DNA of 22,389 nucleotides, from IMG/VR virus record IMGVR_UViG_3300007510_000076, positions 1-22,389 of that record; one strand, written 5' to 3'. The stretch is from a virus. The notes under the pieces are model-generated. The model saw nothing but the letters and a program-made list of their open reading frames with translations, was not told the DNA's origin and made no database searches. Every line of letters begins with the position of its first letter. The first letter of the stretch is position 1. Below, one piece after another: positions 2,032-20,700 of this stretch. The translations under genes were made by a program, and so were the position numbers.

Positions 2032-2352
2032 TTACTCATTACAAAACACATTTACGCTAATATTATCTAGATTGGTGATGGTTTCGTGAAGTAAGCATGA
2101 TCGGGAGTCGTTTTCTCTATGTAAAGGCTTCCCATTAACAAAAATATTAGGCGACCCTTCTGAAGGGTAACATCTTTTATCGGTTTGGGAAGTATGCACT
2201 CCGTTACACCCATGCTCTAAATCAGTAACACCAAACAAAGCAACAAACCTCCCACCAGCAGTAACATTATCTGAAGATTCTTCTTCTGATAAGGCTCCAT
2301 CAAAAAGACAGGTTTCCCCAGTATCATCCCCCACCATTGCTATTCTTGCCAT
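2032..2352 (-). CDS. PAAR-like spike tip protein
   Basis: PAAR-repeat proteins form the sharp, zinc-bound tip on the central spike of contractile tails and type VI secretion systems (T4 gp5.4 is the phage example). This 106-residue product shows the hallmark PAAR segment GSPNIFVNGKPLHREND (residues 66-82), followed by Cys86 and His89. The first half (MARIAMVGDD) fits the usual N-terminal strand. His47, His53, His78, Cys86 and His89 are candidate ligands; which of them bind metal cannot be told by eye. The usual Ala-Ala-Arg of the motif reads Leu-His-Arg here, and the middle (residues 15-62) is less canonical, with additional Cys at 15, 49, 61 and 104. An AGGAG site precedes the ATG, which begins 1 bp after the stop of the 1434-residue gene. 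It closes the tail block before the head-core genes. Confidence 0.8.
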   Translation of the reverse strand: MARIAMVGDDTGETCLFDGALSEEESSDNVTAGGRFVALFGVTDLEHGCNGVHTSQTDKRCYPSEGSPNIFVNGKPLHRENDSRSCLLHETITNLDNISVNVFCNE

Positions 2353-2353
2353 A

Positions 2354-5300
2354 TTATTCTCCTGGGAATTCCTCTAGGGAATCCTCCACTAACTTTTCTA
2401 TAGTTAGTTTTCCTGCTACTTTAGGAACATATTTAGAAATATTTTTAATATTTGAATTCACTGAATCTTTTATTTTCCCGAATTCAGCATTGATAGTATC
2501 ATTACTACTGATTTTACCCAAAAGGAACTTAGATTTTAAATCTTGGAAATTAAAGGAATCTACTAAAGCAATAGATTTCTTATCTTGCTTACTCATCCTT
2601 TTATAAACTGATCCCCAAGTGATAGTATTAGAATTTCTTTCTACAAACTCATTCCCATCTTCAATTACTCCTCGTATTGCCTTAAATAAGGCCCTAGTGG
2701 CTGGTTCTGGTCTTGGTAATATCTCATAACCTTTCTTGAAAGGTTTTAGAGTATCCTTTACTTTTGAATCATTATACTCGTAAGTAAAGGATTCAAAATA
2801 CTTGTCACCAGTAGCAGTATTTAAATAATAATCAGAATGAACCTCATCTAAAATAGGAGAATTAAAATTTTGTTTATAATCAGATGTTTTAGAAGTTATA
2901 TTGAAATTAAGAATCCTTGTTTGATAATCAACCAACTTAGAAGTACCTATTGAGGTTATAATATCATTTCTGTCCGTAGGTATAACAACTATGTACCAAG
3001 GTATTCTTCTAGGAAGTACGGCAAAATCTTCAGATTCTGAGGGAGCAAAGGTATCAAAACTTATATCTTTATACTCCACATTCAATTGTTTCTTTTTTTC
3101 CATATGATCTAAAAATAAATCAGTATGATGAATATAGAAATTATAAAAGGGGTAAACTTTTGTTTTTACCCAATCCTCAATCTCAACAGGGTCCGTTATA
3201 AGATCATAATTACAAGATGTTAACCTTATTAGTGAATTCTCCCTATCTAAATCTGTTAAAGATGCTGTATTTAGTTTGAAGACATATTTACTAGACCTTT
3301 CAGAACTTAATGAAGCATCTTCCTCAATTTTAGCAACAGCAGCAGAACTTACTGTTAATTTAATATTAAAGGTATCCTTTATTTTCTTAAATGAATTAGT
3401 AAGATCTTCAAAATCCATAACTTTAGATCTATGAATTTGAGTGTCTAAGTCTAAAATAGAGTGATTCCCGTCTGCATACACGAAGTTTATTTGATCGAAA
3501 TCTGTTATAGGGAGTGATGAAGTAGTCCCGTCACTTAAAGCCAAATCAATAACATCTGTATCATGAACAAATAATTGTTCTACACTTAAATCAGACTCTA
3601 TTATAGGTAAATTCTTACTTAAATCACTAGCAATAGTTTTCCATCTAAGAACCCTTTCTTTATTTGATCCCCAATATTCTCTAGGATTTAGACTTTTAGA
3701 ATTATTAACAGTTTTAATAATCTCATTAAGAGCAGTAAAAGTAGGGTTAACTACTAAGCCTGGATTACTCTTTTTACTTAAAGTGCCCATATTATCAATA
3801 TCAGATATATCAAAACTGCTTAACTGGTCTTTGATAATCAAATCTTTGATTTTCTGTAGAATAGTGTTCTTTAAAGGGCTCCCATCAGCATGTTTTAAAT
3901 TGTTTACCTTAACTCTAAATTCTTTTGTAAGACTAAGATGGATGTTTTCAAGTGTTAGATCTGAGAATATAGATTCACTATAGTCTGTTTCATTATCTGT
4001 AGAATTATAATACTTATTAATAAGGTGTATCCTATAATCAATTATGTTTGAAAATATATTATTATAATATCTCCCCGTAGGCTTATAAGGAATAAAGGGT
4101 AATCTTCTCCTTGGGGCGTATCTTTCATTAGAGGTAACTGGATCAAAAAGTAATTCACTAGATCTCCTATTAGATAAGTGATTTAAGTAGTCTTTTTGAG
4201 CGGAAGCTTTTGATAATTGCTTAGTTGAATATGATGCCCTAAAATTTCTAAGACTATTCCTACCTGACAAAAAGTTTAATATTTTTGTACCTAACCCTAC
4301 TGTTTCACCTGTTCCTGGTCCTCCTGGGTCAGTGGGATCAGAATCACCACAATTACTACCTGTTGGAGGGGGAGAACTAGGCAAGTTGAAGGATGCAGTA
4401 TTATCCACTCCATTTACTCCAACATGAAATGCTGTAGTACTAGCATTTGTTAGTGTCATTGTTAAAAATAGTTTTAATAGACCCTGCCCGTTTGTTTCTA
4501 TAATGCCTGGGGGTAAATTCCAGAACTTTGCCTTATATCTATAAGCATCTCCTTGAATAGGAGAAAATTGCCAATCTCCTAAAGTATTACCTTGCGATGG
4601 AGCTAGAACAATACTATCAATTTTAGTAATAGCTCCTGTATTATCCAACGCTTCTATAATTAAAGTTCCACGGTTTTCTATGTCTTGTCCAATGTCTGGG
4701 TCAGTCCAAGTATTAGTACACATTATTATGTGTGGCGCAGGATCTCCAACCCAGTAGCAACTAGCCCCAGTGCCAGTAAATATTAACTCTTCTGTAGTAT
4801 TTTGTATTTGTTTAATATTTAAACCAGCTATAGGGTTGGTGTTAGGAGCTACACATTGAAATGGTTGAGGATACTCAAAATCAGGGATTTCGCCCCCTGC
4901 GTTATCTGCTCGACAATGCAATTTAAGAAATTTAAAACCTACCCAATCAGTAAATGTTAATCTAGTAAAATGAAACCCATTGTTCTTTTCCGCATCCCTA
5001 GCATCCCCAGCCATATTAACAAGTTCAACCCTTTTTCTACCTTTATCTATAGTAGTAATATTATGTATGTCAAATGATAATCCAGGAGTCGAAGGAAAAT
5101 CAAAATTAATGCTGGTAACATTTACTGGTTCCCCAAGGTCATTAAAAGTTAATACATCAATAACAGAAGTCCCGTCTTCTGTACACTTCTTCCAAGCAGT
5201 GTTCTCAGCAAAACCTGTTGCAGTTAAATAAGCCTCTCCTCCTGGAGGAGCATCAAACTGAATTTGATCTGACCCATTAATGATATCATTAATAGGCTGA

Positions 5301-6658
5301 ACTTGGATAATTTGAATTTTAGCTACAGTGTCTTGGTCTGAAGTATATCCACAATTATTGGAATCAAAAGAGCAAGACTCGAAACTGTCACATATGGTAA
5401 GATCTTCTGGATCAAACTGTAATAGCACAGAACCAGTTAAGGGTTCAGTTGCACACCCACCGACTGTTAAAGTTACTGTTAAGGTTTGTGTTCCAGTTGA
5501 ATTATTCAGAGCAGTAGTGCTTATAGTTATATGCCCAGAATTATTATCAATTGTAGAACCTAATCCTCCATCAATAGAAAGATTAGTGTTTATATTAGGA
5601 TCAGATATCAGAACCGCTAAAGAGCCTCCCTGAGGGGAGAAAACTATAATATTGTCATCTGGGCAAACTGTCCAACCAAGATCACCTGCAGGATCATTAA
5701 AAGGTTCATTTATATGACTATAAGCGTCTGATAAAATTGTCTCTACTTCATCTGGGTCTGGGCAGTTATTAGGTACACATTTCAATACTACTACCATATC
5801 ATCACAGTCCCCACCGCAAGAACCTTGATCCATACAGTCTGCATAAAGGTTCCCAGTTTCTGACACTGTTGTACAAGAAAGACCAGCCCCGACAGTAGCC
5901 TTCCAATTAGTAATTATTGCTCGATTTACAGCCTCCCCTATTTGAGCCTCCTGGGGAGTAACGCCGTCACATACTTGGGTAAATGTTGCTTCTTTTATAA
6001 ACCCCCCAGGGGATATTGGGGTAGTCTGTATCTGAGGGTTATTTGGGTTTATTTCACATCTACAAAATTCAATAGGGCCAGACCCCCCTCCACCTCCACC
6101 ACCTCCATCACCAGGAGCGTCAAAATCTCTACAACAACCGTTGTTTGCATCCTTACAATCTTGTGGGTCTTTATACCCTGTTTTATTAGCAAAAACGAAT
6201 ACATCTGGGGTATTACTCTCATTTTCACTATTAAATGAGACATCTATAAAAGTTGTACACCCCTGAGAATTATCGCAAGGATTGGCCGCATGTATAGGTG
6301 AACAATAATAATAACGGACAGTAGTGCAACAAGTAGTAGGTTGTGTTATAAAATATGTAACACCATCCTTAGTGAAAGAATCAACAGTTACTATGTCACT
6401 ACACTCATCTATAACTCCCAAGACTACTAGTTCTTCTTTGGTAAAAGTAGTATTATTTTGACCAGTACTTGCGCCACAATTAGGTGAGTCACTATAAGTA
6501 CAATAGAAAACAGTAACTTCTATATCGCAATCACTACCACCACCGCCAGGGGGATCTCCTCCTCCACCACCAGGGTCTCCTCCTCCTCCACCATCAGGGG
6601 GTTGAGGCCCCCCAACAATGTTTATAGCCTTAAGTATACATGAATAAAGGGTTCCCAT
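2354..6658 (-). CDS. Large two-part virion protein: Cys-rich polyglycine N-half, charged C-half
   Basis: The 1434-residue product is of unrecognised family and is probably a tail or baseplate-associated structural protein, judged from its neighbours. After about 18 residues a polyglycine/Asp-Pro linker (21-42) leads into a beta-rich, Cys-rich region with 33 of the protein's 34 cysteines in residues 1-770, including Cys-Cys pairs at 110-111 and 175-176. A second polyglycine linker lies at 184-194 and a Pro/Gly linker at about 762-785. The remaining 650 residues contain one Cys, are rich in Asn, Asp, Lys and Ile, and look like a mixed alpha/beta structural domain. The start lacks a clear Shine-Dalgarno. 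The ATG at 6658 follows the stop of the 845-residue gene by 8 bp, so reinitiation or coupling is likely; an ATG 5 nt earlier is in another frame. It could be a fibre, a baseplate decoration or a spike-linked protein. It ends 1 bp before the PAAR gene. Confidence 0.85.
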   Translation of the reverse strand: MGTLYSCILKAINIVGGPQPPDGGGGGDPGGGGGDPPGGGGSDCDIEVTVFYCTYSDSPNCGASTGQNNTTFTKEELVVLGVIDECSDIVTVDSFTKDGVTYFITQPTTCCTTVRYYYCSPIHAANPCDNSQGCTTFIDVSFNSENESNTPDVFVFANKTGYKDPQDCKDANNGCCRDFDAPGDGGGGGGGGSGPIEFCRCEINPNNPQIQTTPISPGGFIKEATFTQVCDGVTPQEAQIGEAVNRAIITNWKATVGAGLSCTTVSETGNLYADCMDQGSCGGDCDDMVVVLKCVPNNCPDPDEVETILSDAYSHINEPFNDPAGDLGWTVCPDDNIIVFSPQGGSLAVLISDPNINTNLSIDGGLGSTIDNNSGHITISTTALNNSTGTQTLTVTLTVGGCATEPLTGSVLLQFDPEDLTICDSFESCSFDSNNCGYTSDQDTVAKIQIIQVQPINDIINGSDQIQFDAPPGGEAYLTATGFAENTAWKKCTEDGTSVIDVLTFNDLGEPVNVTSINFDFPSTPGLSFDIHNITTIDKGRKRVELVNMAGDARDAEKNNGFHFTRLTFTDWVGFKFLKLHCRADNAGGEIPDFEYPQPFQCVAPNTNPIAGLNIKQIQNTTEELIFTGTGASCYWVGDPAPHIIMCTNTWTDPDIGQDIENRGTLIIEALDNTGAITKIDSIVLAPSQGNTLGDWQFSPIQGDAYRYKAKFWNLPPGIIETNGQGLLKLFLTMTLTNASTTAFHVGVNGVDNTASFNLPSSPPPTGSNCGDSDPTDPGGPGTGETVGLGTKILNFLSGRNSLRNFRASYSTKQLSKASAQKDYLNHLSNRRSSELLFDPVTSNERYAPRRRLPFIPYKPTGRYYNNIFSNIIDYRIHLINKYYNSTDNETDYSESIFSDLTLENIHLSLTKEFRVKVNNLKHADGSPLKNTILQKIKDLIIKDQLSSFDISDIDNMGTLSKKSNPGLVVNPTFTALNEIIKTVNNSKSLNPREYWGSNKERVLRWKTIASDLSKNLPIIESDLSVEQLFVHDTDVIDLALSDGTTSSLPITDFDQINFVYADGNHSILDLDTQIHRSKVMDFEDLTNSFKKIKDTFNIKLTVSSAAVAKIEEDASLSSERSSKYVFKLNTASLTDLDRENSLIRLTSCNYDLITDPVEIEDWVKTKVYPFYNFYIHHTDLFLDHMEKKKQLNVEYKDISFDTFAPSESEDFAVLPRRIPWYIVVIPTDRNDIITSIGTSKLVDYQTRILNFNITSKTSDYKQNFNSPILDEVHSDYYLNTATGDKYFESFTYEYNDSKVKDTLKPFKKGYEILPRPEPATRALFKAIRGVIEDGNEFVERNSNTITWGSVYKRMSKQDKKSIALVDSFNFQDLKSKFLLGKISSNDTINAEFGKIKDSVNSNIKNISKYVPKVAGKLTIEKLVEDSLEEFPGE
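6077..6109 (-). repeat. Second polyglycine tract in the 1434-residue gene
   Basis: This low-complexity G-rich stretch encodes Asp followed by eight Gly, then Ser-Gly (residues 184-194). It separates two cysteine-rich segments and probably acts as a hinge. Confidence 0.65.
6533..6598 (-). repeat. Polyglycine/Asp-Pro tandem repeat in the 1434-residue gene
   Basis: Imperfect tandem repeats of a G-rich unit encode residues 21-42, roughly three copies of an Asp-Pro-Gly(4-5) block. It is a flexible linker near the N-terminus and a likely site of repeat-number variation. Confidence 0.7.
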
Positions 6659-6666
6659 GACATGTT

Positions 6667-9204
6667 TTAAATTGTTCCATCGGCTTCCTCACCATTTACA
6701 CTAAAGACTTGCTTTCTAGCATAAGGAGGTACATCGTCCTTATAACCCACAATAGTAAAGTTAACTGTAGGATAAGTTACCAGCATTGGACTAAAAGTTT
6801 GCTTTTGGTTTCCCGATACACCATCATCAAAGGTATCAAAGCTAGTTCCGTGGAAGGTCATTGCTGTGCCTTGGGGTGTTGTTCTAGCTCCCGCTATGTT
6901 AGGGGTTTTTGTTGCGCCTGCATCAATTAACTTACTGGTAATTACACCAACTCTACTAAAATAATGACTCTTTCTAAAAAATTCTTCTTGAGACCTATTA
7001 TAGCTATGACCAACAATATTATTAGAATTATCAGGCTGTCCAAACCAAGGTGCCCCTTCATGAGCGGCAGGACTCCCAACACATACAAAAATAGTAAACC
7101 CAAGGGGACCACCAGCAGCATCACGGTTCTTTTCTACAAAAATACCTGTTTGGTGAGCCCCAGTTCTAATATCAGCGTTTCCTCCAATATCAATCGAAGG
7201 CGCACCAGCCATTAACGAGCAATTTATTAAATCAACTCTAACATCAAAATCAGTATATCCTAGTTCTTGTAATAGTAGTTGACTAAATGTAAATGTCTTT
7301 TTTACAAAAAGTGATCCATACATAGGGCACATACGCCCGTGACTAGTGGCTGCTCCTATATAACCAAACTGACTTACAGGCATATCTGTTATGAGAGGAT
7401 TACCTTCTGCATCAAATTCATTTATATTAGTTGGAAAATTGAATTTTCCCTCAGCGTTATGTTTAACAGCGGAAAATAATCTATCATTCCTATGATTACC
7501 TCCACCAGGAAACCATTCCTCGTTAATATCCCACCCAGGAAACCTAGGAAGTTCTCCCACTATAGAAGGGACATGATAAGTTTTTAAAATACCCAATGCT
7601 TTTTCCTCTGGATCAGTAATGTCATTCCATTGGGCCCACTCCAGTTCCGTTAATATACCTTCTGGTCCCCATAAAGTTCCTCCATAAATGGTTCCCATAG
7701 CTACTGGTTGAGATATTGGGTTTGGTTTATTGATCTCAGTCATTAAAACATCCCTAACATCAAGAATGTCTTTTTGAACCTCTACTTTACCAACAGCGGG
7801 GTTAGCAAAAGATAAAGGAGGGTTTGCTGCCGCAACTCCAGCCCTTTCGTTATAGGATAGTTCCGCAGTTCTCATGAACGGTCTAATATCAAACAGGTCA
7901 TTAGTTACAATAATGGGTTGTCCCCTCTTAACAATTACATAAGCAATAGGTAAAACACTTTGACCAACTAAAGCTAAGTTGTCTTTAGACAACTGACTCT
8001 CAAACAAAGGTGTTAAATTTAATAAATCTTCTGGGGACGGTATATTTGAAAAATTCCCTCTTAGCCCAATTTGTGTTTGCTGAGTATCCGCTAAAGTAGA
8101 AATCATTCTATTATGTAGGATATCTAAATCTACTGTATTTTCTGAAGTAAAGTAATTTGCTGAATTACCAGAGGCTGTTGCATAAGCCCCAGTATCAAAA
8201 TAACCAGCCTCATTATCATAATTATTTACCCCATTACCATGACCTTGATTAAGAGCTATGACACCAGCCCCCTTTAAAATACCTAATCTTGGTGCTGATA
8301 TTTGTTCTGGTGTCCCTGGGGGGTTCATAATTGTAGTTGAAACAGAATCAATAGGATGGGAATAAACGAATAATAAATCTATTCTAGTTGCTGGGGTTAG
8401 GTCAGTAGTGTTTGCGTAATCATTTTCATCAAAGTCGGGAATGGATATTGATAAAGTTTCAGCTACATCAACAATAGCAGTTCTAATAGAACCTCCCCAA
8501 AAACGAGTAAATTCTACGGACTCTTGTTGAAGGTCATTTTGAAATGCTGTAATACCATAGTTATGTCCAAAAGATCTCCAAATCGCAGCCTTGCTTTTAG
8601 GCATACCAGGAACAGTTAATCCTGAGTTAATTCTAAAGTCCACACTGTTAGAAAACTCAAGAGTATTTCCAACTAACGGTTCAGAGTTATGATGCTGTAA
8701 AAAGGTATAAAGACCAGTATCAAGTAAGGGTTGATCAATTATCTCTCCTGCTAAAGTCTTAAGAACATTTAAAGGTAGAGTAAATTCTTTAGTCTTTCGA
8801 TTAGCCAAATTGGCATAACCGCTGTCAATAGGAGGACCTGACCCACCAGGAGGATTCCAGTTTGCATACACCTCATTAAGTAAATTAATACCTTTATTAT
8901 AAGCATCATTTATTCTTGCAGTATATCGACCAGGATTTACAAAAACAGTCCTATCAGCCCCATTAACAAAAGGTTTAAGCTCTGCTAAATCCTCTCTGCC
9001 TATTCCAGAAATACTTAAGTTATTAGCAACTTGGTCCCTAAGGAAAAGAATATTCTCCTCTAACTGTTTAATAGGGATATTATCAACTTCCCAATAGTAA
9101 GGGTCGTTACTTTTAAAATATCTTACTGGTTGAACGAATTTGTGAGAACTCTCAACAAACTGCTCAGACGCTTCATTAAATAAATTTCCGTTTAGTTCTG
9201 ACAT
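6667..9204 (-). CDS. Putative fibre or baseplate-attached virion protein (WE-DN-P docking motif)
   Basis: The 845-residue product is a putative structural protein. Its N-terminus holds FVQPVRYF then DPYYWEVDNIPIKQLEENIL (residues 23-53), matching the N-terminus of the neighbouring 1174-residue protein in a WE-x-DN-x-P segment followed by a helix. I infer a shared docking element for the baseplate. The rest is beta-rich and unlike the neighbour, with a Gly/Pro linker at about 118-127 and long Asn/Gly-rich stretches. I do not recognise a catalytic or receptor-binding fold. No signal peptide or membrane segment is evident. An AGGAG site lies 7 nt upstream of the ATG, 12 bp after the stop of the 1174-residue gene. 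Position among tail genes supports a virion role; the precise role is unknown. Confidence 0.82.
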   Translation of the reverse strand: MSELNGNLFNEASEQFVESSHKFVQPVRYFKSNDPYYWEVDNIPIKQLEENILFLRDQVANNLSISGIGREDLAELKPFVNGADRTVFVNPGRYTARINDAYNKGINLLNEVYANWNPPGGSGPPIDSGYANLANRKTKEFTLPLNVLKTLAGEIIDQPLLDTGLYTFLQHHNSEPLVGNTLEFSNSVDFRINSGLTVPGMPKSKAAIWRSFGHNYGITAFQNDLQQESVEFTRFWGGSIRTAIVDVAETLSISIPDFDENDYANTTDLTPATRIDLLFVYSHPIDSVSTTIMNPPGTPEQISAPRLGILKGAGVIALNQGHGNGVNNYDNEAGYFDTGAYATASGNSANYFTSENTVDLDILHNRMISTLADTQQTQIGLRGNFSNIPSPEDLLNLTPLFESQLSKDNLALVGQSVLPIAYVIVKRGQPIIVTNDLFDIRPFMRTAELSYNERAGVAAANPPLSFANPAVGKVEVQKDILDVRDVLMTEINKPNPISQPVAMGTIYGGTLWGPEGILTELEWAQWNDITDPEEKALGILKTYHVPSIVGELPRFPGWDINEEWFPGGGNHRNDRLFSAVKHNAEGKFNFPTNINEFDAEGNPLITDMPVSQFGYIGAATSHGRMCPMYGSLFVKKTFTFSQLLLQELGYTDFDVRVDLINCSLMAGAPSIDIGGNADIRTGAHQTGIFVEKNRDAAGGPLGFTIFVCVGSPAAHEGAPWFGQPDNSNNIVGHSYNRSQEEFFRKSHYFSRVGVITSKLIDAGATKTPNIAGARTTPQGTAMTFHGTSFDTFDDGVSGNQKQTFSPMLVTYPTVNFTIVGYKDDVPPYARKQVFSVNGEEADGTI

Positions 9205-9216
9205 TGTTAACTCCTA

Positions 9217-12200
9217 TTAAATACCTTTATCAAGATTAAATATGTTTGTTGTTTTAAACCCTTGACCATGACCAGATGTAGCAAATGAAGTGGTACCCCC
9301 TTCCTCAGTTGTTGCTCTATAAATTTCCACCAACTTAGGTCTTCCTAATATTGGAAGGGAGGCGTTTTTTGCATTAGCAAAAGTATTAGATGCTGAATCA
9401 TCTAACATAATATTATAGTTATTAGGCAAACAGAAATCTTTTGGATGGAAATACCCTGATGTTACAAACCCAGACAAGGCGGTTCCTGAGGCATCCCTAG
9501 CTGTATCAAGTAAATCAAAGTAGTAATCCTGCATGGAAGACAAGGTAGAGGAACACCCACCAGACAAGAAATACCCTTGAGCCAATGTTTGGAACGGTCT
9601 ATTGTCATAAGAAGACAAGTCTGCGTTATAATAACTCAAGGCTTTTGCTGTGGGGTTAATTTCCAGGAATAACCTAAACGGACCCCAGTTTTGGTAAGTA
9701 GAACTAGTACCATAACCATAAGGGTTACTATCACCAAATCTCTTTTTAGACCATGCTCTAAAGTATTCTACTTCTGCTGTTGAATTTACACCAGAAATAT
9801 CGCTAAGAGCAGAACACCCTAATCCAAAGAAATCAAGTATAGACAAAGAACTAAGAGGCATATCATCATAAAAACCAGCCCCACTTAAAGCAGACACATC
9901 AGCAGCTAGACCAGCAAGCGTAGTTGTTAGATTTACTAACGGAGGTAGGTTCTTTATAAACTGCTGTCCACTTAAGTAAGGAGAGTCTACAAACGCACTT
10001 AGGGCAGCAGCAGAGCAATCATAGGTAGTGTCAGTATAATAAATACCTCTAGGTCCATGATACCCAGCATCGCCTGGGTAGTTACCACTTACACTTAAAT
10101 TATTAGCATTGAGGGTAGATCCCCCAGCTATAGCCCATATTCTAATGTCATTACACCCTCCTGCTATATTTTGAGTAGGGTCTAGGTAAACCTCATCAGC
10201 ATTTACAGGGCCACATATAAAGTTAACATTTTCAACATTAACTGTACTATTATTAACTGCTTTTACACATACCCCACCTTTGGTTAACCTTCTGAAGTGT
10301 GTAATCCCAAAAGCAGGGGATGAAATGTTTCTTACGAACCAATTATAGCCACCATAACCAACTCCACCAACTTCAGAAGTAAACACTCTAGTAGAAGGGT
10401 CAGATGTTGGTAACAGATCTGCGTTACCGTAGCTAGAGTCTCTGAAATTTGCTTCAGGTGGGTTACCTATATTAGCAGTATTATAAGGATAGAAAGTAAA
10501 TGACCCAGCACTGGTATAAAGAGCATCTTGCTTTGGGCTGTCTGAATTGAGATAAATTTCATCAGTGGAGTGACCAGCCTCCCAATTAGTATACCAAGAC
10601 CCTAAATCTCTTATATTGATGGTAGAATTATTATTTGCTATTAAACAACCTACTCTTCCATATACTTCAACAGATGTATGGTTAGCAGGATTATGTAAAT
10701 CCCACTCACTGGTTGCTAGAGTTTTAATATCTGCTTTCATATGGGGTACAAATGATACATTTGAATTGTCTTCACATAAAACAGCGGAATCTTGTTGAGA
10801 TATATGAGTAGGGCCTGCTACAATTAAGTTAGAGTTACCTTGTACATGGATACTTGTCCCAACAACCCCAAGATCGGCTGTACTAAATATGGTAGAACCA
10901 CCAACTGAGCCACGAAGAAGGGCTGTAGAGGAATTTAAAACACCTAAATGCCTACCTCTAGTTTTTCTGGTTTCTTGGTAGTTGGTCCAAAAATAAGGAT
11001 GAACCAATTCACAAAAACTATTTTGAAGTTCTACCCCAGGAAGATTGTATAACGCTGCACTACCATCAAAACCAACATTTGCTAGAAGAGTAAACTCACC
11101 ATGCTTAGTAGGCATGGAATCAGCATAAGTAGGTTTTATTTTAGAAGAGGTTGCTTTTATATGTTGTCCGTTAGCATGGAAAAAATTCTTAGTAATGCGA
11201 TAATTTATACCTTTATCTACCAAAGGCCAAGAAACAGGTTTTGATAAGTTTTTATTGTATTGAAAGGTAGACTCCTCAAGCTCAACAGCACCTTTTGTAC
11301 TACATTGACCAATTATAGAATCAGTTATTAAACTAGATTGCCTTGCAAGTATACCTGTTGTATTATTATAAACATCCAAAACACCATTAAGGTCAATAAC
11401 CGAGGATATTAGTTCTATTCCAACCTCACTCTGCTGAACAGTAGTTACAGGAGTAGTTCCTTGGTCAACGGAAACTGCTGTACCACCAGTAAGCTGAGAA
11501 TTTACAAGTTTAATACCTGTCTTTTGGTGAGCTACTACAAGAATACTACTAACACTAGTAGAGTAGGAATCTTGATCAAAAGATAGTTTGGAATTATTAG
11601 CAAGTATACCATAATCCTCCACCACACCCCTTGAGGAGTGATCATAATTTCTACAAGATATAAATTTCCTTCTAAGACTAATAAAGGAATCGTCAACAAC
11701 AAGACCAGCGACACCAGCCCTCGCTACACCACAATCCTCGACAACTAAACCCTCAGTGTTTGAAATATGTATACCGTAATCATGTATTGGGGCAGGAGGG
11801 CCAGTTCCGCTTGCCGCATTAACTTGAAATCCTCTAATATAAATAGGACCATCACAATTAGACACTTTAATCTTGCGAAGGAAGTTTCCTGTATAAATTC
11901 CTACCAGATCAGCCCCATTGGTGAAGTCTTGCCTTCCGTAAAGAATATCATCAGCAATCGGATTACCATTATACAGTAGACCAGAAGTGTCAATAGTGTT
12001 GTCTGGATATGGTGCTAAGGCTAATTTAACATCATGGGTATTAAAATAAACACGGTCGGCAGTTGCCGTAAGTTTACTAGTGTCAGCACCCAACATAAGG
12101 TTTACATACCCAATCTTATGAGTATCGTCTAAATACTTATTAACAACCAATGCCATGGCCGATGTACTTAAGAAGAGAGATGATGTTTGTGAACCAGTAT

Positions 12201-12741
12201 GTAAGCAAGAAGTATCAAATACACTACGGTACAAACTACCACCATCTTCTTTTAGTGAGTTAATTCTGCCTACAACTCCTTTATCAGTTATGTCGTAGGC
12301 ATTATCTGCTGTTGGAACTTCAAGAGTGCTAAAAACCCTATTTATAATCTCTAAAGCACCATTACCCTCACATTTAACATTATTTAAATTTAGTTCTCCT
12401 ATATCTCCACTAACTGCCACTTCAATAAGAGTGGGGAATCTAAGTATCTCTGGTAATGCGTCTACTGCCCCTTGAAGAGTTGTAAATACATTAGAAGATA
12501 CATCTAAATGAGTTGGTATGCTTGAGGATACTGATAGCACAAGACCAGGGACAGAAGAAGTAGCCCATCCAAGCTTCTCCCATAAATAATCAGTCCTCTC
12601 TTCTAAATCATATAAAGGGGTGTTATCTTGCTCCCAGCTATAAAAAGAAGAACTGTCAAATTTAGTTACGAAAGGATTCCAGAAATTAAAAATCTCTGTC
12701 CCAGCACTTACTGTATAAAGGTCTAATTTGTTAAATGTCAT
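9217..12741 (-). CDS. Putative tailspike/fibre with parallel beta-helix and WE-DN-P docking motif
   Basis: The 1174-residue product looks like a tailspike or fibre that contacts the host. Residues 20-58 contain FWNPF then SFYSWEQDNTPLYDLEER, the same motif as in the 845-residue protein. A pectate-lyase-like entry follows (FTTLQGAVDALP, 86-97). From about residue 285 short rungs recur, such as YGIHISNTEGLVVEDC, AGLVVDDSFISL, YGILANNSKLSF, TGIKLVNSQL, VGIELISSVIDL and TGILARQSSLI. This is typical of right-handed parallel beta-helix proteins. Similar rungs recur further on (GCLIANNNSTINI, GVCVKAVNNSTVNV), so the helix may span most of the protein. Such proteins can bind or cut polysaccharide; I cannot identify catalytic residues. 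The start lies 1 bp after the stop of the 192-residue gene with only a weak TTGGA-like site, so coupling is likely. Confidence 0.85.
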   Translation of the reverse strand: MTFNKLDLYTVSAGTEIFNFWNPFVTKFDSSSFYSWEQDNTPLYDLEERTDYLWEKLGWATSSVPGLVLSVSSSIPTHLDVSSNVFTTLQGAVDALPEILRFPTLIEVAVSGDIGELNLNNVKCEGNGALEIINRVFSTLEVPTADNAYDITDKGVVGRINSLKEDGGSLYRSVFDTSCLHTGSQTSSLFLSTSAMALVVNKYLDDTHKIGYVNLMLGADTSKLTATADRVYFNTHDVKLALAPYPDNTIDTSGLLYNGNPIADDILYGRQDFTNGADLVGIYTGNFLRKIKVSNCDGPIYIRGFQVNAASGTGPPAPIHDYGIHISNTEGLVVEDCGVARAGVAGLVVDDSFISLRRKFISCRNYDHSSRGVVEDYGILANNSKLSFDQDSYSTSVSSILVVAHQKTGIKLVNSQLTGGTAVSVDQGTTPVTTVQQSEVGIELISSVIDLNGVLDVYNNTTGILARQSSLITDSIIGQCSTKGAVELEESTFQYNKNLSKPVSWPLVDKGINYRITKNFFHANGQHIKATSSKIKPTYADSMPTKHGEFTLLANVGFDGSAALYNLPGVELQNSFCELVHPYFWTNYQETRKTRGRHLGVLNSSTALLRGSVGGSTIFSTADLGVVGTSIHVQGNSNLIVAGPTHISQQDSAVLCEDNSNVSFVPHMKADIKTLATSEWDLHNPANHTSVEVYGRVGCLIANNNSTINIRDLGSWYTNWEAGHSTDEIYLNSDSPKQDALYTSAGSFTFYPYNTANIGNPPEANFRDSSYGNADLLPTSDPSTRVFTSEVGGVGYGGYNWFVRNISSPAFGITHFRRLTKGGVCVKAVNNSTVNVENVNFICGPVNADEVYLDPTQNIAGGCNDIRIWAIAGGSTLNANNLSVSGNYPGDAGYHGPRGIYYTDTTYDCSAAALSAFVDSPYLSGQQFIKNLPPLVNLTTTLAGLAADVSALSGAGFYDDMPLSSLSILDFFGLGCSALSDISGVNSTAEVEYFRAWSKKRFGDSNPYGYGTSSTYQNWGPFRLFLEINPTAKALSYYNADLSSYDNRPFQTLAQGYFLSGGCSSTLSSMQDYYFDLLDTARDASGTALSGFVTSGYFHPKDFCLPNNYNIMLDDSASNTFANAKNASLPILGRPKLVEIYRATTEEGGTTSFATSGHGQGFKTTNIFNLDKGI

Positions 12742-12742
12742 G

Positions 12743-13321
12743 TTAGAATTGCAATGTCCAAAGGAACACTAGGGTAAAGAAACGAGTCTTTTTTATAGGA
12801 ATGAAGGGTCTGTAGGCAACCAAGATGGGGCTAGATGTAGCAGCCCCAGTAGGATTTCTCATAAACAACCCAACCTCATTTAATTCATCATCAGAATTAC
12901 CAGTCCTATCGTCCAAAACTAAAGTATATCTTACAGCAGTTTTAGATACTCTATGAATATTTGAATAAGGTATTCCTGCGAAAGCTTGAGAGGCGACCAC
13001 GCTTCCGTTTTGTATTGGTTGTAAGTCTTCTACATGTACGAAACTTTTGAGACCATAAGGCTTTACTCCACCTAAAGGATTTTTTAATTTAAAAGAGGAT
13101 ACTCCATAATCAGTTAAATCACCAGAAGTACCTACTTGATAATTAAGTATTTGATAATCAATTATAGAACCAGAACCAGAGGCAGCATATAAGTGAGCTA
13201 AACCAACACCCATACCAGATGTAATAACATTATTATCTGTCCAATGCATCTCTTTAGAGCCATCAGGGTAAACCTTCCATATCTCTATGTGCCCTGTAGG
13301 TGTAAATTTATCTTTAGTCAT
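12743..13321 (-). CDS. Minimal member of a three-paralogue virion module family
   Basis: The 192-residue product is a putative structural protein and the shortest of three neighbouring homologues. Its N-half (residues 10-75) has GHIEIWKVYPDGSKE, NNVITSGMGVGL and a YQVGTSGD segment. Its C-half (147-192) has ELNEVGLFMRNPTG, PILVAYRPFIPIKKT and ends FLWTLQF. Both halves align by eye with the 863-residue protein and, less closely, with the 595-residue protein. With no added effector domain it could be a base, cap or adaptor for fibre assembly, which is inference. The start has a GAGGG-like site about 9 nt upstream, 27 bp after the stop of the 863-residue gene. The stop is 1 bp from the start of the 1174-residue gene. 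Confidence 0.82.
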   Translation of the reverse strand: MTKDKFTPTGHIEIWKVYPDGSKEMHWTDNNVITSGMGVGLAHLYAASGSGSIIDYQILNYQVGTSGDLTDYGVSSFKLKNPLGGVKPYGLKSFVHVEDLQPIQNGSVVASQAFAGIPYSNIHRVSKTAVRYTLVLDDRTGNSDDELNEVGLFMRNPTGAATSSPILVAYRPFIPIKKTRFFTLVFLWTLQF

Positions 13322-13348: not shown

Positions 13349-15940
13349 CTAGAACGAAACAGTCACTTTCTGTTTTCCTAAGGTTGGTGACAGGAACACA
13401 TTTCCAAGTGGTTCCCAAAAATCATTAACTCTTGGTTGATATATTCTTGGAAATCTCCTATCATGAGTGTCTGTTTGCAAAGTCTCCTCGTACTGCCCCC
13501 AAGCGTGTACAGTCCCAGAGAGAACCTCTGGTGCGCTATTTATAGTACCAGTATACCCAGGCAACTTAAGACCGCCACTGCCCTTAGTTCCTGAACAGGT
13601 CGGGAAAATAAAATATTGAGATACAGCGCCACTACCGTCATAATTAAGCTCTGCATTTGTAGCAGCCTCTGTAACCGCTGTTGGGACTGCTGTAGTTAAG
13701 TAAATTCTATACCAACCATCTCTACCAGCCCACGGATCCTGGTACCCAAACTTAGCTATATCACCCACAGTTCCAGAAAAACAACCCGCACTTACATAAA
13801 TATCTGTGGAACTAAAGGCTCCTGTAGCTTCCAAATCTATCAAATCTAACCCACCAGCAGAGTTCCATTTAAAAGAAGCCCAACATCCTTTAGAGTTTGC
13901 TCCTGGGGTTACAGAGTCACCAGTTTCTTTAAATCCTCTAGAAAACAATTCTATATGAATACGATCATTACTAGAAACCGTGCTAGATTCTTTAATCCTT
14001 GGATTAGCTACTTGAATAGTTTCAGACAACTTCTTTACATAAATTGAAAAAACAATTGATGACATTGAAGAATTATATTCCATGGTTTGAGATTGTCTAC
14101 CAATATTTCTATTTAAAGAATCAGATTCAAAAGTTGAGTAAGTCCTTCTAATTTTAGGAGGAGAGTCTACTGGTTTTGGTTGTCCTGTACTAGCATAATT
14201 AGCTGCATTTATTGATTTGTTTTCAGGCCAGATATAAATTGCAGAGGTAGCATAACTAAGGGTAGCATCTTGAACACCATCAGGAGCTTTTATAGATGGC
14301 AAGAAATAACTATGCATATACATTTCCATGGGAGGATTAACTGTATAAGTGTCATTCCCAGAATGAGTTGCAAGAGTTGGGTATCCTGGTAGATAAAGTC
14401 TCCCTGCTCCTACATTTTCCCTCCACCACCTATTTTTAGGTATAAGAAGATCTTGGGCATGGTCAGTTATATCCTGTATACTTATAGAACAAGATGGTTC
14501 AAACTCTGGTCTAAAGTCGTTTGAATACGCATATTTATTAACTTCATCAGACCCAGAAACTATATTATAAGAAGATACTACAACTCCATCTCCACCCACA
14601 CCAGAAGCTATTACAGTCCCAGATGTAGAAGAAGCAGGTATAGTTAATATAAGCCCACTGGTCCCTGCTGATATTGACGATAATAAAAGTGATCCTCCTA
14701 AAGATGCTGGGTCTCTAACTTCTACTGGTCCATTAGAAGAAAAATCCAAGTAAACACTAACAGGACTTAAACAACTAACATCTAATAAACCAGAAACAAT
14801 GCTACTGGTCCCAAGATTATCTACACCTAATTCTACTACAGGGGGGTCATTATTGGATTTAAAATATATTATGAAATTTGGGGGAGTACCGTCTCTTAGT
14901 AGTTTAGGTATTCCCATCCCCCCAGTGAAACTCTCCATATGTAAATCTAGTCTAGTGTTAGAAGGGTAGTAAGAAGTAGTATCCAACGCACTAACAGGTA
15001 TAGTGATTAAAGTTGTTCCTCTGGGGACGAATAATGGGGAAGCGTAGTCAGAATCAATTGAATAGTGTGCCCCAGACACAGCATTTCCTTGTAAGGAATA
15101 GGATAAGTAACCGTCATGTGGTGTTGGAGTTGTACTTTGGATAAGAACATCATAAGAGCTATTCTTATCCATAGTGTGTAGATAAAAAGTAGCGGAGGGT
15201 GCTTTCACAGAAGGATAGAATCGTAAAACATCTCCAATCCTAAGTAGATCCCAAAAATCATAATAATCATGAGTTCTTTTAGGATAAGGGTTAAGTTGAA
15301 TTATCCATTCAACATCCAGACTAAACTCTTCCGTTTTAACAATAGGCTCAGGTAAGGATTTATATGCTGAAAGTACGGGTCTTGGTATAAATAACCCTTC
15401 GGGGTTTTCTGAGAAAAGTCCAAACTCCTTTATAGATACACCATTTAAAGACTCCCTATCTATAGTTATCTTAGTATTAACAGATTGATCTGTTAAATTG
15501 GTAGTAGGGTTATTAGGAAGTATAGCAAGCAATAAAGAAGATGTAGTATAGTTAAGACTTTCCTGTGGCTGGAATGGGTTGGTTACAGTTAAAACTTCCT
15601 TCTCTACTAAATCAATATCACCACCATAACTAGAAACAGAAGTTAAAGCAGAAGATAATTCATAAAAGTTATTGTGAGTTGTTAAAGGGAGTGAGTATGC
15701 CCACTCAGTATGGTCAATTATTTGAGGAGTTATAATTTGTGGTAAATCTTGGTGATAACCAGAAACCCCTACTTGAAAATACTTAAAATGGAACCTATCA
15801 ATTAAGTCAGTGGGTGAAGTAGAAAGCATTGAAGCTACACTAATCCCAAAACCGTCAGTTAGAACATTACAACTATCTTCTAGAATACGCTCCTTTCTTC
15901 CATCTTTAAAGATTTTGGTTACTGTTACTAAGCCTCTCAT
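13349..15940 (-). CDS. Virion protein: shared module plus Calx-beta-like and lectin-like domains
   Basis: The 863-residue product is a likely host-contact or decoration protein of the tail. Residues 1-216 are the same module as the 192-residue neighbour: VTVTKIFKDGRKE, NVLTDGFGISVA, FQVGVSGY, then IKEFGLFSENPEG, RPVLSAYKS and EWIIQL. Residues about 265-362 resemble a Calx-beta fold (LSYSLQGNAVSGAHYSI, then LFVPRGTTLITIPVSALD). Residues about 620-825 resemble the concanavalin/laminin-G-like domain common in phage minor structural proteins, with SIVFSIYVKK, DGWYRIYLT (741-749) and HAWGQYEE (812-819). The start overlaps the stop of the 595-residue gene in an ATGA, with a GGAGG site at a suitable distance. 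Domain calls are by eye; the module homology is the firmest part. The carbohydrate-binding role is inference. Confidence 0.84.
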   Translation of the reverse strand: MRGLVTVTKIFKDGRKERILEDSCNVLTDGFGISVASMLSTSPTDLIDRFHFKYFQVGVSGYHQDLPQIITPQIIDHTEWAYSLPLTTHNNFYELSSALTSVSSYGGDIDLVEKEVLTVTNPFQPQESLNYTTSSLLLAILPNNPTTNLTDQSVNTKITIDRESLNGVSIKEFGLFSENPEGLFIPRPVLSAYKSLPEPIVKTEEFSLDVEWIIQLNPYPKRTHDYYDFWDLLRIGDVLRFYPSVKAPSATFYLHTMDKNSSYDVLIQSTTPTPHDGYLSYSLQGNAVSGAHYSIDSDYASPLFVPRGTTLITIPVSALDTTSYYPSNTRLDLHMESFTGGMGIPKLLRDGTPPNFIIYFKSNNDPPVVELGVDNLGTSSIVSGLLDVSCLSPVSVYLDFSSNGPVEVRDPASLGGSLLLSSISAGTSGLILTIPASSTSGTVIASGVGGDGVVVSSYNIVSGSDEVNKYAYSNDFRPEFEPSCSISIQDITDHAQDLLIPKNRWWRENVGAGRLYLPGYPTLATHSGNDTYTVNPPMEMYMHSYFLPSIKAPDGVQDATLSYATSAIYIWPENKSINAANYASTGQPKPVDSPPKIRRTYSTFESDSLNRNIGRQSQTMEYNSSMSSIVFSIYVKKLSETIQVANPRIKESSTVSSNDRIHIELFSRGFKETGDSVTPGANSKGCWASFKWNSAGGLDLIDLEATGAFSSTDIYVSAGCFSGTVGDIAKFGYQDPWAGRDGWYRIYLTTAVPTAVTEAATNAELNYDGSGAVSQYFIFPTCSGTKGSGGLKLPGYTGTINSAPEVLSGTVHAWGQYEETLQTDTHDRRFPRIYQPRVNDFWEPLGNVFLSPTLGKQKVTVSF

Positions 15941-17724
15941 ACGAATTCAAGCCTCCATTTTATAGTAAGTGCTGCGTTAGCAGATAAAGCAGCCCCTGTC
16001 ACGGAAAAATCACTTGTAGCTGTTATACTCTCATTAAATACTTTCCTTGAGAAAACCCTAAACTCCATATCATCACCAGTATCTACATCCTTATCAATTG
16101 ATCTATCAAAAGGAATTCCATTAGATACCATTTTTCTATAATCTAATGAATAAAGTCCCATTGTCATTATACCCCCAAAAGCGTTATTAGTTGCCATATC
16201 ATTATCCGATAACTCAACTTCAAACTCTACTATGCCAGTAGTAGGGGAGGTAGCTCCATGTTTACATGCCAAGAAAGCTGCTGGTAAAGTCCCCGTAACA
16301 GCTTCCCCAAGTGTCTGGTATCTTGCTCTTGTATACCCAAATAAATCCGTACTCCTGGCTACATTAAGTCCCCCTATATTTCTTGACTGAGTTGTTATTG
16401 GGTTATTAAAAGATTCGTAACTTAAAGAGGATACTAAAGTATAGTGAGATTTACCAGCCCCAGTAAACCCATGACCTCCTAGCCACCTACAATCAGACAT
16501 CATAGCCGATGTGGCTAAGGTTTCATCAACACTCCAGTTATCTAAATAATTGTATATATTTTTAGATTTTCCATAAAAACCAGCAAAATTTAAATTATGA
16601 TCTGCTTTTATTGTTCCATCAATAACAGAGGCGTAATCAGTAATTGATCCAGGCTCTAACCCACTAAGAATTGGATTCTGCTTTTGAGGTAAAGTTAAAT
16701 AAGGGTCATATCCACTAGTATTATTTCTAAGAGTTCCAGGACCATTCAATAAGATTATTGAACTAACATTTGTACTGTCAATACCTGATAAGCATGGAAT
16801 AGATGATGCTAATACAGGAAATTCTTGAAAATCTTTAGTTGAATCAAACTCGGACTCGCTTCCAAGGAAGTAGTTTAAAGGTACACTACCTAAATTTAAA
16901 GAAGGTCTTGATAATAAAACTCCTCCTGATGGGGAAGTAGAGACATAAGAAAAGGTTCCATCAGCTTGTGTTCCCCCTGGGAAAACAAATGCTTCAGGAG
17001 AGGTGCTAGTGACTGCTACTCCGCTAGGAGAAACTAGTCCTAATCTATACCAACCTCCTCCTAAATCTTTAATTAAGGTGTCTCCCCCAGGTTTAATATC
17101 ACAAACGCCCTTACCATCAGAGTCCCAGTAAAAGGAACCACTAGTGGATGAACCGTGCCTGTCTAGTCTTAAGCTAGTTATGCTTCTTCCTACGCCCATA
17201 CCACTATCTATATTCTCAGGAGGATACTCAAAATCGTATTTACAATCAACAGTAAATATCATTGGGGCATTAACCATCCCTGATAAATGAGCGTTAAATC
17301 CACTGAAGTTTATATAAGAACTTGTGGTTATGCCTTGCATAGAATTTATCTTTAAAACATGGCTTGATAAATCAAAGGGGCTCCTGTCTCCATCAAGACT
17401 ATTGTTAACATTAAGATCAGAATAAGGAATAGGGGCTTCCCCAATAGTACCAGCACTAACAATAAAATTATGTTTTTTGTATTTATGAAGGTTTTGAAGA
17501 TAGCCACCAGCGCCCTTTCCTACAGTAAACCCTTGTATGATATAATTTGAAGCATCAAGAACCCTTTCTTGGACTACCCCATCAACTATAGATACTGATG
17601 ATGGCATAGTAAGAAAGTCTACAACGGATTCAGCAGCACCATCCATAATTAGATTGCTTTCCGAGAGTATTAACTCCGACTTCCCATCAGAAGGATTTCT
17701 ATATATTTCTACTACGCCTTTCAT
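15937..17724 (-). CDS. Virion protein: shared module apparently split by a lectin-like insertion
   Basis: The 595-residue product is the third paralogue of the module family. The N-half is at residues 3-78 (GVVEIYRNPSDGKSELIL, NLIMDGAAESVVDFL, QGFTVGKGAGG). A matching C-half seems to appear only at about 518-595, with MTMGLYSLDY, EFRVFSRKVFNESIT and a final LTIKWRLEF. Between them lies a domain with IFTVDCKYDF, a Gly-rich GGGWYRLGLVSPSG (222-235) and YVSTSPSGGVLLSRPSL, like the GWYR-type lectin domain of the 863-residue protein, plus about 200 residues I cannot assign. The gene starts in a TAATG overlap with the wedge gene and has no clear Shine-Dalgarno, so coupling is likely. It probably attaches near the baseplate and contacts the host surface; this is inference. 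Confidence 0.83.
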   Translation of the reverse strand: MKGVVEIYRNPSDGKSELILSESNLIMDGAAESVVDFLTMPSSVSIVDGVVQERVLDASNYIIQGFTVGKGAGGYLQNLHKYKKHNFIVSAGTIGEAPIPYSDLNVNNSLDGDRSPFDLSSHVLKINSMQGITTSSYINFSGFNAHLSGMVNAPMIFTVDCKYDFEYPPENIDSGMGVGRSITSLRLDRHGSSTSGSFYWDSDGKGVCDIKPGGDTLIKDLGGGWYRLGLVSPSGVAVTSTSPEAFVFPGGTQADGTFSYVSTSPSGGVLLSRPSLNLGSVPLNYFLGSESEFDSTKDFQEFPVLASSIPCLSGIDSTNVSSIILLNGPGTLRNNTSGYDPYLTLPQKQNPILSGLEPGSITDYASVIDGTIKADHNLNFAGFYGKSKNIYNYLDNWSVDETLATSAMMSDCRWLGGHGFTGAGKSHYTLVSSLSYESFNNPITTQSRNIGGLNVARSTDLFGYTRARYQTLGEAVTGTLPAAFLACKHGATSPTTGIVEFEVELSDNDMATNNAFGGIMTMGLYSLDYRKMVSNGIPFDRSIDKDVDTGDDMEFRVFSRKVFNESITATSDFSVTGAALSANAALTIKWRLEFV

Positions 17725-20700
17725 TAATTTATTATACTAATATTAGTATACCTCTGAGCAAGTAATAATACCCCAGCAGGCCAATTACCTTGAACAACAA
17801 TATCCCTATAATTTAGTCTACCACCACCATAAAACCCGTTAGGGCCTGCCTTAAACTCAATTGAAGGACCTTGATTTGCTCTTTTTTGTGCTGTTATTGC
17901 TTGATTTTTATAAAAACTCATTATTTCTAAAATCTGATAAGGCTCTAAGTCTTCATACTCAGTAAAATTAGATTTTATATAACTACCTCTAGTAGTCCCA
18001 ATAACCTTAACAGAAGATAAAGAAAAATTATTATTATAATCTACTTGCCTTAGCAAACCAGTATATTGCTTCTGTGGTTTAACAGTTCCATTAGAATAGA
18101 ACTTTTGTAAAGTATATGCATTTATTTTTATAAATAATTTAGGAATAGCTATTGGAGCCCCAGTATTAGGACTTAACCCTATTGCTGCTGTTACTTTTGC
18201 ATTATCAAAAAACATATTCCCACTTAAATCTATAGAAATATCATTTCCACTAGGTATTAAAGAACCATCCTCTTTGAAAAATCTTACAGGGTCGTATGTA
18301 ACTATATTCTCTAAAGAGTAATCATCAATATCAGAGGATATTTCCAATCTAGAATAAGATTTCAAAGTTTCATCTACAGTAGATATGCCATCTAGTATCC
18401 AAATCTTACTACTATCAATACTGGCGTTAGGAATTAATTCTATAACATACTTTTGATCTTCTCTATGAACTTGGTTATAAGCTCTATAGTAACTTAAAGG
18501 TACTTTTATAGGTTGGTTATTAGTATTAAAGTTTAAACGATCTACAACTAAATTATCTTTTTTAAGATTCCATAGTTTTGACAAATTAGTAACTTCAGAA
18601 AAACAAGCGTTACCTGCATCAGTAAGAGAGGATTGAGGATGTTCTATGTTATGAGATAAATCATTTATTAGATTTTGTAGCCCTTTAGTTTTAGAAGTTA
18701 CTGTAGATACAGGCTTCATCTCCCATTTTCCATTTGGCGAATAATTCCAGAACACATAATTTCCATCAAAATCCTTCTCTGCCTCTGTGTGAATCCATAC
18801 GCTGTAGGACCTACCACCAGTAAGCAAGTTTTGGTCATTCATGAAAATAGATTTTGTTGTGACGCTAAACTCATGTTCTGGGGAGAATAATACATCTTGG
18901 TCTCCATAATCAAAGGAGAATCTTAATCTACTTCCAGGTAAAGTAACTTTAAGACCTAGCAAGTTATTTTCTAATAAAGCAGAGTCATCATCTAAAATAT
19001 TTCCATTATCCGACAAGGAGAATACAGACATTTTATTAGGGGTAGCCTTATCATAAATAATTTCAACCCCACTGAAGTAATAAGGATTTCTATATTCAGG
19101 ATTTTTTACATATAAAGAAGAGGTTTCTGATTTATAAATCGAATCATCACCTATAGCTGACAATAGAAATTCATTATTATCATTAATACTCCTATTCTTT
19201 TTATTAGTTTTGGTTGTATCTACCCCTGACCCATCTAAAGTTAAAAGACCATTCCATAAATAGGGTCCATTAATTTTAGAAAGTATGTTACCACCTCCAT
19301 TAATATAACTAGTAAGTAAGTTATAAGAAGTAGTTTGATTAAAGGAATCTTTAGCAAAGAAATTCTCATAAAGATAAGGTAATCCTCTTATGCTGCTTTT
19401 ACTTCCTCTCCTGTAATATTTACCAAACTTTTTATTATAAAACTCGTCCTGTGTTAAATCATAGGAATCCCATAAGGCGTTATATACATTTCCGTAGAAG
19501 TCTTTCCAATTATTAAATAGGAATAAATGTTTATTTACATCTAAAAACTTTAAAGTTTTATAATGTATTTTTCTTTTAATTAAATCGTAAATTAATTTAG
19601 GAAGATCTTCTATATCATCTCTATATCTATAATTATGTCCTTCATAAACCTCTATAGCATCCAAACCTCTAATACTAAATGTATTAGAAGTATCTACTCC
19701 ATAAAAGACTCCTGAAGAATCTAAAGTTTCACAAGATTCATAAACCCCAGGTAAATCAAAGGTATCTGTTACAGGAGTAAAAGAATAAGAACTAAAATTA
19801 AATCCCAATGGGATATACCCACTAACCCCCCAATCATAAGATTGTTTAATCCCAGCCCCTGTTACTGTTCCTTTATTAAGCCTTATAGGGTTGTTAAAAC
19901 CATCTCTAGTAAACCAATCACCTTTCCATAAGGTCTTTGAATTATCCCTTCTTCTTTTTGAGGATCTTCCAAGACAAGGTATATAATCCCCACTGAGGGT
20001 TAACGGGTATCCACTTAAAATATAATTAGTTGAAATCTGATCTTTAATTATACCAAATCTTAATCTATCTCTTTTAAAAACTGATTTGTTTAAATGAGTT
20101 GTTCTAGATTTAGTATCATCAAATCCAGGAAGAATGTATCTAGCTAATAAACCAGCCTTTTCACTCCTCATGTCAACGGAACATAGTTGAAAACCACCCA
20201 TAGTACCAGAAGCACTAGGTTGATCTAAGAAAGATACAGTAGCTCTAGGGGCTAACGCCACAAAAGTTATGTAAGGATCTCCAAGAAGTAAATCAATATG
20301 AGATCTAGGAATAGCTTTAGCAGGTACAAACTTATGTATAGACTCTAATGATGCGAAAAAGTCTTCTCTATCAAAAGCCCCAGGATTAAAAAATTCGCCA
20401 TCTATATTAGTTGATGATATACTTAAATTGAAATGAGAGGATTTTCCATTCCATATAGGAATAAAATCAAAACTATCCCTGTCGTAATTATTCATTAAAG
20501 TTGAATAGTTAGGGGGTAGATTCATAGAGGAGGTCAAAAAGAAAAACCCATTATTATAATATTTTGGGTCTTGTTGCCCTTTTACAGTGTTATCTAAAAC
20601 ATAATTATAAAATGCTTCCGCAGAACTAATAGTTACGCCTAAACATATAAGTTTATTTTTAAGAAATTCTACTAAGTCTTCAGAAATGGAGCAGTCTTTA

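Follow-up and report, generated by a model that had tools for sequence, protein, structure and literature searches.

In tailed phages, modular receptor-binding proteins and tail fibres combine a conserved attachment part with a fast-evolving part in which modules are exchanged. Disulfide bonds, mostly linking subunits, have been described in virion proteins of the Agrobacterium phages Milano and 7-7-1, where proteome cysteine content is raised to about 1.4% (PMC10811340, PMC12796354); across the whole proteome, T4 has 0.9% and A511 0.7% (PMC10811340). We analysed a 22,389-nt fragment of an uncultured virus record (IMG/VR IMGVR_UViG_3300007510_000076; hereafter the window), in which a minus-strand gene at 2354..6658 encodes a 1434-residue protein with 34 cysteines, 33 of them within residues 1–770 (window 4349–6658) and one at residue 1149. 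The probability of finding at least 33 of 34 cysteines in 54% of the protein is about 2e-8 (uniform draw, hand-calculated binomial). Its cysteine content is 2.4%, compared with 0.4–1.4% in the other large window proteins, so that cysteine richness is not a property of this phage as a whole, and Milano-type enrichment across structural proteins was not found here.

Phage proteins are made in the reducing cytoplasm, and a family with up to 111 apparently paired cysteines in the N-terminal part of one tail-module protein is unexpected on that account. We assign a probability of roughly 0.6 to the reading that this is a two-part tail or baseplate protein, in which a conserved anchor carries a variable, disulfide-locked, probably host-contacting array that is oxidised after lysis.

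Probable cysteine pairing and modules in the N-terminal half

Searches with the protein itself returned near-identical copies only, an alignment search with the N-half retrieved no additional relatives, and a collection of 50,697 phage records contained no match to the protein or to its relatives. Neither half could be assigned to a Pfam or PHROGs family. The family was gathered from IMG/VR through the conserved neighbouring gene at 6667–9204 (48 loci, then two overlapping sets of 80), and the gene after this neighbour was a homologue in nearly all loci of sufficient length; removal of duplicates left 89 complete members. The contigs are metagenomic and share common ancestry, a non-independence that clustering lessens and does not eliminate, and the boundaries between the N- and C-terminal parts are starts of hidden Markov model (HMM) matches, which could move a cysteine in a few members.

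Intramolecular pairing means that cysteines are gained and lost in pairs, giving even counts. With the N-terminal cysteine left out, 50 of 58 homologues had an even N-module count and 8 an odd one (p=1.6e-8), whereas the even:odd controls were 40:37 for the neighbour protein and 35:40 for the upstream beta-helix-like protein. After clustering of the N-modules at 50% identity, the ratio for the equivalent total count was 47:7. The prediction also held in a fresh scan: of 22 clusters that contained no member of the first set, 19 were even and 3 odd (p=8.6e-4). Among those three, L167 owes its odd count solely to an N-terminal cysteine at residue 21, just past the cutoff. The merged set clustered at 50% gave 60:11. 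Furthermore, 20 of the 33 cysteines are invariant across the five closest N-halves, compared with 49 of 791 other N-half residues (Fisher 4e-15). These N-halves are 28–31% identical to that of the window; the preliminary description of this DNA had named full-length homologues with non-conserved cysteines as contrary evidence, and what was found is conservation at about 30% identity. Even counts, cysteine conservation, and the gain or loss of whole modules described below together argue strongly that the N-half cysteines form disulfides, one of three explanations offered in that description.

The protein is organised as follows (window coordinates).

2354..6658, minus strand: cysteine-rich/anchor protein, 1434 residues; open reading frame near-identical in loci L001 and L002, with syntenic homologues in about 90 contigs.
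6608..6658, minus strand: conserved N-terminal peptide, residues 1–17, with a lone Cys7 and a family pattern of roughly F-x-C-G-E-F-x-P-G.
6533..6607, minus strand: Gly/Pro-rich linker, residues 18–42.
6119..6532, minus strand: cysteine-rich domain, residues 43–180, 12 cysteines (10 invariant in alignment A3), with two layouts resembling the six-cysteine module (44–111 and 119–176), assigned by eye and not detected by the module HMM.
6077..6106, minus strand: polyglycine linker, residues 185–194.
5339..6076, minus strand: cysteine-rich region, residues 195–440, 14 cysteines, of which C262, C275, C281, C294, C332, C423, C429 and C436 are invariant.
4379..5338, minus strand: cysteine-poorer residues 441–760 (alignment A3).
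4304..4378, minus strand: Pro/Gly linker, residues 761–785, including Cys770.
2357..4291, minus strand: conserved, cysteine-poor C-half, residues 790–1434, the putative virion anchor (alignments A1 and A6; AlphaFold2).

The cysteine counts given in the preliminary description proved exact, as did its two Cys-Cys pairs (110–111 and 175–176) and its polyglycine and Pro/Gly linkers, with glycine runs at residues 23–27, 30–34, 38–41 and 185–192 and a Pro/Gly linker at about 761–785. The picture can be refined in two ways: the conserved part begins near residue 790–825, the first 17 residues being a separately conserved N-terminal peptide, and cysteine density peaks at residues 44–436, with only five cysteines in 440–769.

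Several relatives carry tandem modules of six or four cysteines, 30–75 residues long. The six-cysteine module (about 47–62 residues; C-x4-C-x3-10-C-long-C-long-C-x3-C) is present in 13 tandem copies in L010 and 11 in L011, and singly or doubly in L007, L009, L014, L058, L060 and L062. A second form, with four cysteines ([YFW]-x-C ... C ... [YFW]-x3-6-C-x3-C), recurs within L088, L091 and L099 and occurs singly in others. These patterns matched 24 and 28 times, respectively, compared with 0.006 and 0.5 in composition shuffles. Because the four-cysteine form is without the first and fourth cysteines, and the L009 copy without the third and fifth, these few events suggest pairing 1–4, 3–5 and, by exclusion, 2–6.

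AlphaFold2, run on 31 aligned modules, predicted for the six-cysteine module a fold of four short strands and a C-terminal helix (predicted local distance difference test score, pLDDT, 93.7; predicted template-modelling score, pTM, 0.75), the terminal C-x3-C following an aromatic residue and lying within the helix. Foldseek returned seven PDB matches for this model, none significant; the top four were Kunitz-fold chains (E 2.7–5.2; query template-modelling score, TMq, 0.43–0.52). Kunitz/BPTI domains have the spacing C-x8-C-x15-C-x7-C-x12-C-x3-C, with which the module agrees in the last cysteine pair alone. In nine N-modules Pfam matched no family, Kunitz included, at E<=0.1, so that we read the weak likeness of the predicted module as resemblance, not membership.

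The N-terminal part was less identical than the C-terminal part in all 18 homologue pairs compared, which supports the proposed fusion of a variable to a conserved part, a combination expected of phage receptor-binding proteins. The window (as L002) and L007 are 33% identical in the N part and 62% in the C part. Across the 89 members the N-module spans 0–1838 residues (median 425) and 0–111 cysteines (median 17), with at least five cysteines in 78 members and a run of at least four glycines in 56; the C-half spans 577–788 residues (~610) with a median of one cysteine. L010 and L011 carry 101 and 89 cysteines at 87% C-half identity, and L022 and L027 carry 41 and 17 at 83%. The window has an insertion of about 160 residues with four cysteines (roughly residues 502–664), which its relatives are without (alignment A3). 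Such close pairs, together with this insertion, indicate at the sequence level that the array changes by whole units. At the other extreme, L028, L049 and L052 have about 31 residues, free of cysteine, ahead of the C-half, and the C-half is thus found almost alone, the arrangement that the preliminary description had suggested looking for.

A cysteine in the first 20 residues is kept in 88 of 90 N-modules, even where the N-module is otherwise cysteine-free (L029, L053, L071, L101), and we propose that it is unpaired with respect to the N-module. A partner was sought in the neighbour protein; several members with the N-terminal cysteine lack the best-conserved one of that protein (28 of 35), and we therefore claim no pairing. 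In one case, the only one seen (L018:11897–12140), the N-terminal peptide motif is preceded by a cysteine module, an extra leading bead.

Other explanations for the cysteines

The best-surviving alternative, which we nevertheless consider unlikely, is that the cysteines chiefly cross-link virion subunits and stabilise the particle, as in the disulfide-locked tail of Milano. Both Milano (PMC10811340) and 7-7-1 (PMC12796354) have disulfide networks extending through the virion, and the lone N-terminal cysteine could be such a link; however, the large neighbours here are cysteine-poor and show no parity, the cysteines are located in repeated modules with even counts within each, and the array is variable and dispensable.

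Metal binding at zinc-ribbon-like or cluster sites, in place of disulfides, was also raised in the preliminary description and is improbable. Cys-Cys and C-x3-C pairs look like metal ligands, and four-cysteine sites would likewise yield even counts, but of the 50 even counts 28 leave a remainder of 2 on division by four, which excludes such sites as the sole explanation. None of the eight histidines in the window N-half is invariant, and the modules end in a C-x3-C in a predicted helix instead of knuckle pairs.

Slightly less probable again is the third suggestion of that description, lateral acquisition of the N-half from a host or eukaryotic extracellular protein. Secreted proteins typically have small disulfide-rich domains joined by linkers, and the nearest solved folds of the module are Kunitz domains. 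Against this stand the missing Pfam match, a PDB sequence search that yielded nothing of note, and a scan of two associated families (149 + 151 genomes; the host itself is not established) that detected its positive control and no module; moreover, some form of the array extends across most of the lineage, attached to the same N-terminal peptide. A role as Kunitz-like protease inhibitors, which would protect the virion or act against an enzyme of the host, is very improbable: the four best Foldseek matches share that fold, but they are not significant, Pfam does not detect it, the cysteine spacing differs, and a minimal four-cysteine form exists.

The putative conserved anchor, its locus and a proposed mechanism

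For residues 825–1434 AlphaFold2 gave a model with pLDDT 79.6 and pTM 0.82, for which no PDB or BFVD match was found. A weak profile match of the C-half to the Milano baseplate hub (E=0.05) was lost with a deeper profile of 79 sequences. Being the constant part, the C-half is the likely virion anchor. The flanking genes are as follows.

2032..2352, minus strand: PAAR-like tail-tip protein, next gene downstream (Pfam PAAR_motif E=6.6e-5, under the curated cut-off; PHROG 281); PAAR at the same place in relatives.
6667..9204, minus strand: conserved neighbour (NDPYYWEVDNIP protein), used as the anchor for collecting the family.

Upstream in transcription order lies a 1477-residue protein with a Tail_P2_I domain, and downstream, with the PAAR-like protein, a T4-type prohead protease about 40–45% identical to cyanophage gp21, followed in the relative L028 by a T4-type major head protein. 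These genes together place the cysteine-rich gene in the tail module of a T4-like phage; the PAAR-like gene does not directly follow in about 19 of 68 members. The tail-gene neighbourhood points, with moderate confidence, to a virion location, and the gene order next to PAAR suggests that the C-half sits at the tail tip.

The two lineage contigs from genome collections (L052, QCKN01000003.1, the same contig as L049; and L053, NZTP01000017.1), together with the cyanophage kinship of the head genes, are the basis on which we take the lineage to be marine. L052 is a 130 kb contig in a Prochlorococcus assembly and L053 belongs to an Altibacter metagenome-assembled genome; these are hints of hosts, not proof.

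Several further features were observed in the window. The proteins at 9217–12741 and 6667–9204 share a related N-terminal motif (SSFYSWEQDNTPLYDLEERT and NDPYYWEVDNIPIKQLEEN) that is nearly invariant among relatives and is probably a common virion attachment motif. The former is the beta-helix-like protein, with 16 cysteines (7–24 in relatives) and no even/odd bias. Three consecutive proteins (12743–13321, 13349–15940 and 15937–17724) resemble one another at the N-terminus (an opening strand, then G-x-x-E, then N-x-I/L), which suggests paralogous virion proteins. A small acidic protein at 1585–1956 contains a CPLC motif (HSCPLC; HTCPLC in L010), possibly a metal knuckle. Guanine-cytosine content is about 30–33% at 2500–4000 (conserved C-half) and 17500–21500 (Tail_P2_I protein), and 36–41% across most of the tail module.

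In the mechanism that we propose, the conserved C-half would hold the protein in the tail, probably at the tip near the PAAR protein, while the N-half would project flexibly from it, its small disulfide-locked modules strung together by Gly/Pro linkers behind the conserved peptide. The N-half would be synthesised reduced in the cytoplasm and oxidised after lysis, in oxygenated water, into compact, protease-resistant beads. Across the family, gain, loss, duplication and replacement of modules outpace change in the anchor by far, and one branch has almost no array. This turnover and near-absence suggest contact with the host or surroundings, and the array would most likely serve as an exchangeable device for surface contact, with the host cell or its envelope as the target, and not as an assembly part; this is the weakest step. 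More speculatively, the lone N-terminal cysteine could attach this end of the protein to a different protein of the virion. Variability and position give weak to moderate support to exposure of the array and host contact.

Several points weigh against the two-part, host-contacting protein proposed here. Eight homologues of the first set violate parity; the C-half belongs to no PHROGs or Pfam family and matches no known baseplate sequence or fold; variability and position are the sole grounds for a host-binding role; the variable part of phage fibres is usually C-terminal, and here it is N-terminal; and we found in the literature no virion proteomics, structure or experiment on this lineage.

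The proposal suggests that virion parts can be completed extracellularly through oxidation, and singles out a rapidly evolving candidate for host contact in a large lineage of phages without a match among the phage records searched. Furthermore, counting cysteine pairs provides a simple sequence test for disulfides that is applicable to other phage proteins.

Comparison with known systems

We found no description of this protein family in the literature, and construction of a putative host-contact part from disulfide beads has not been described for phages. Tentatively, and with less than even confidence, the array may represent a new kind of phage host-contact device: tandem disulfide micro-domains by the tail tip, shuffled as whole beads, widespread in uncultured T4-like marine phages, and reaching their final fold after release into oxygenated water.

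Among contractile systems with PAAR tail-tip genes, the likeness is one of position, a PAAR-like gene lying next door in many members; the cysteine-rich protein is not a PAAR protein, and the libraries searched yielded no PAAR-associated protein similar to it. With Kunitz/BPTI domains the predicted module shares small size, a beta hairpin, and a C-terminal helix whose C-x3-C comes a few residues after an aromatic one, but it differs in cysteine spacing, in having a minimal four-cysteine form, and in the lack of a Pfam match. The protein resembles modular fibres in joining a conserved part to a fast-evolving part with module exchange, whereas its variable part is N-terminal and built of putative disulfide beads, and no known fibre was matched by sequence or by fold. 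Milano and 7-7-1, contractile-tailed phages with disulfide-bearing virion proteins, demonstrate that phage particles can be oxidised structures. In those phages many structural proteins are modestly cysteine-rich and the links run between subunits, whereas here a single protein carries an array of modules with up to 111 cysteines.

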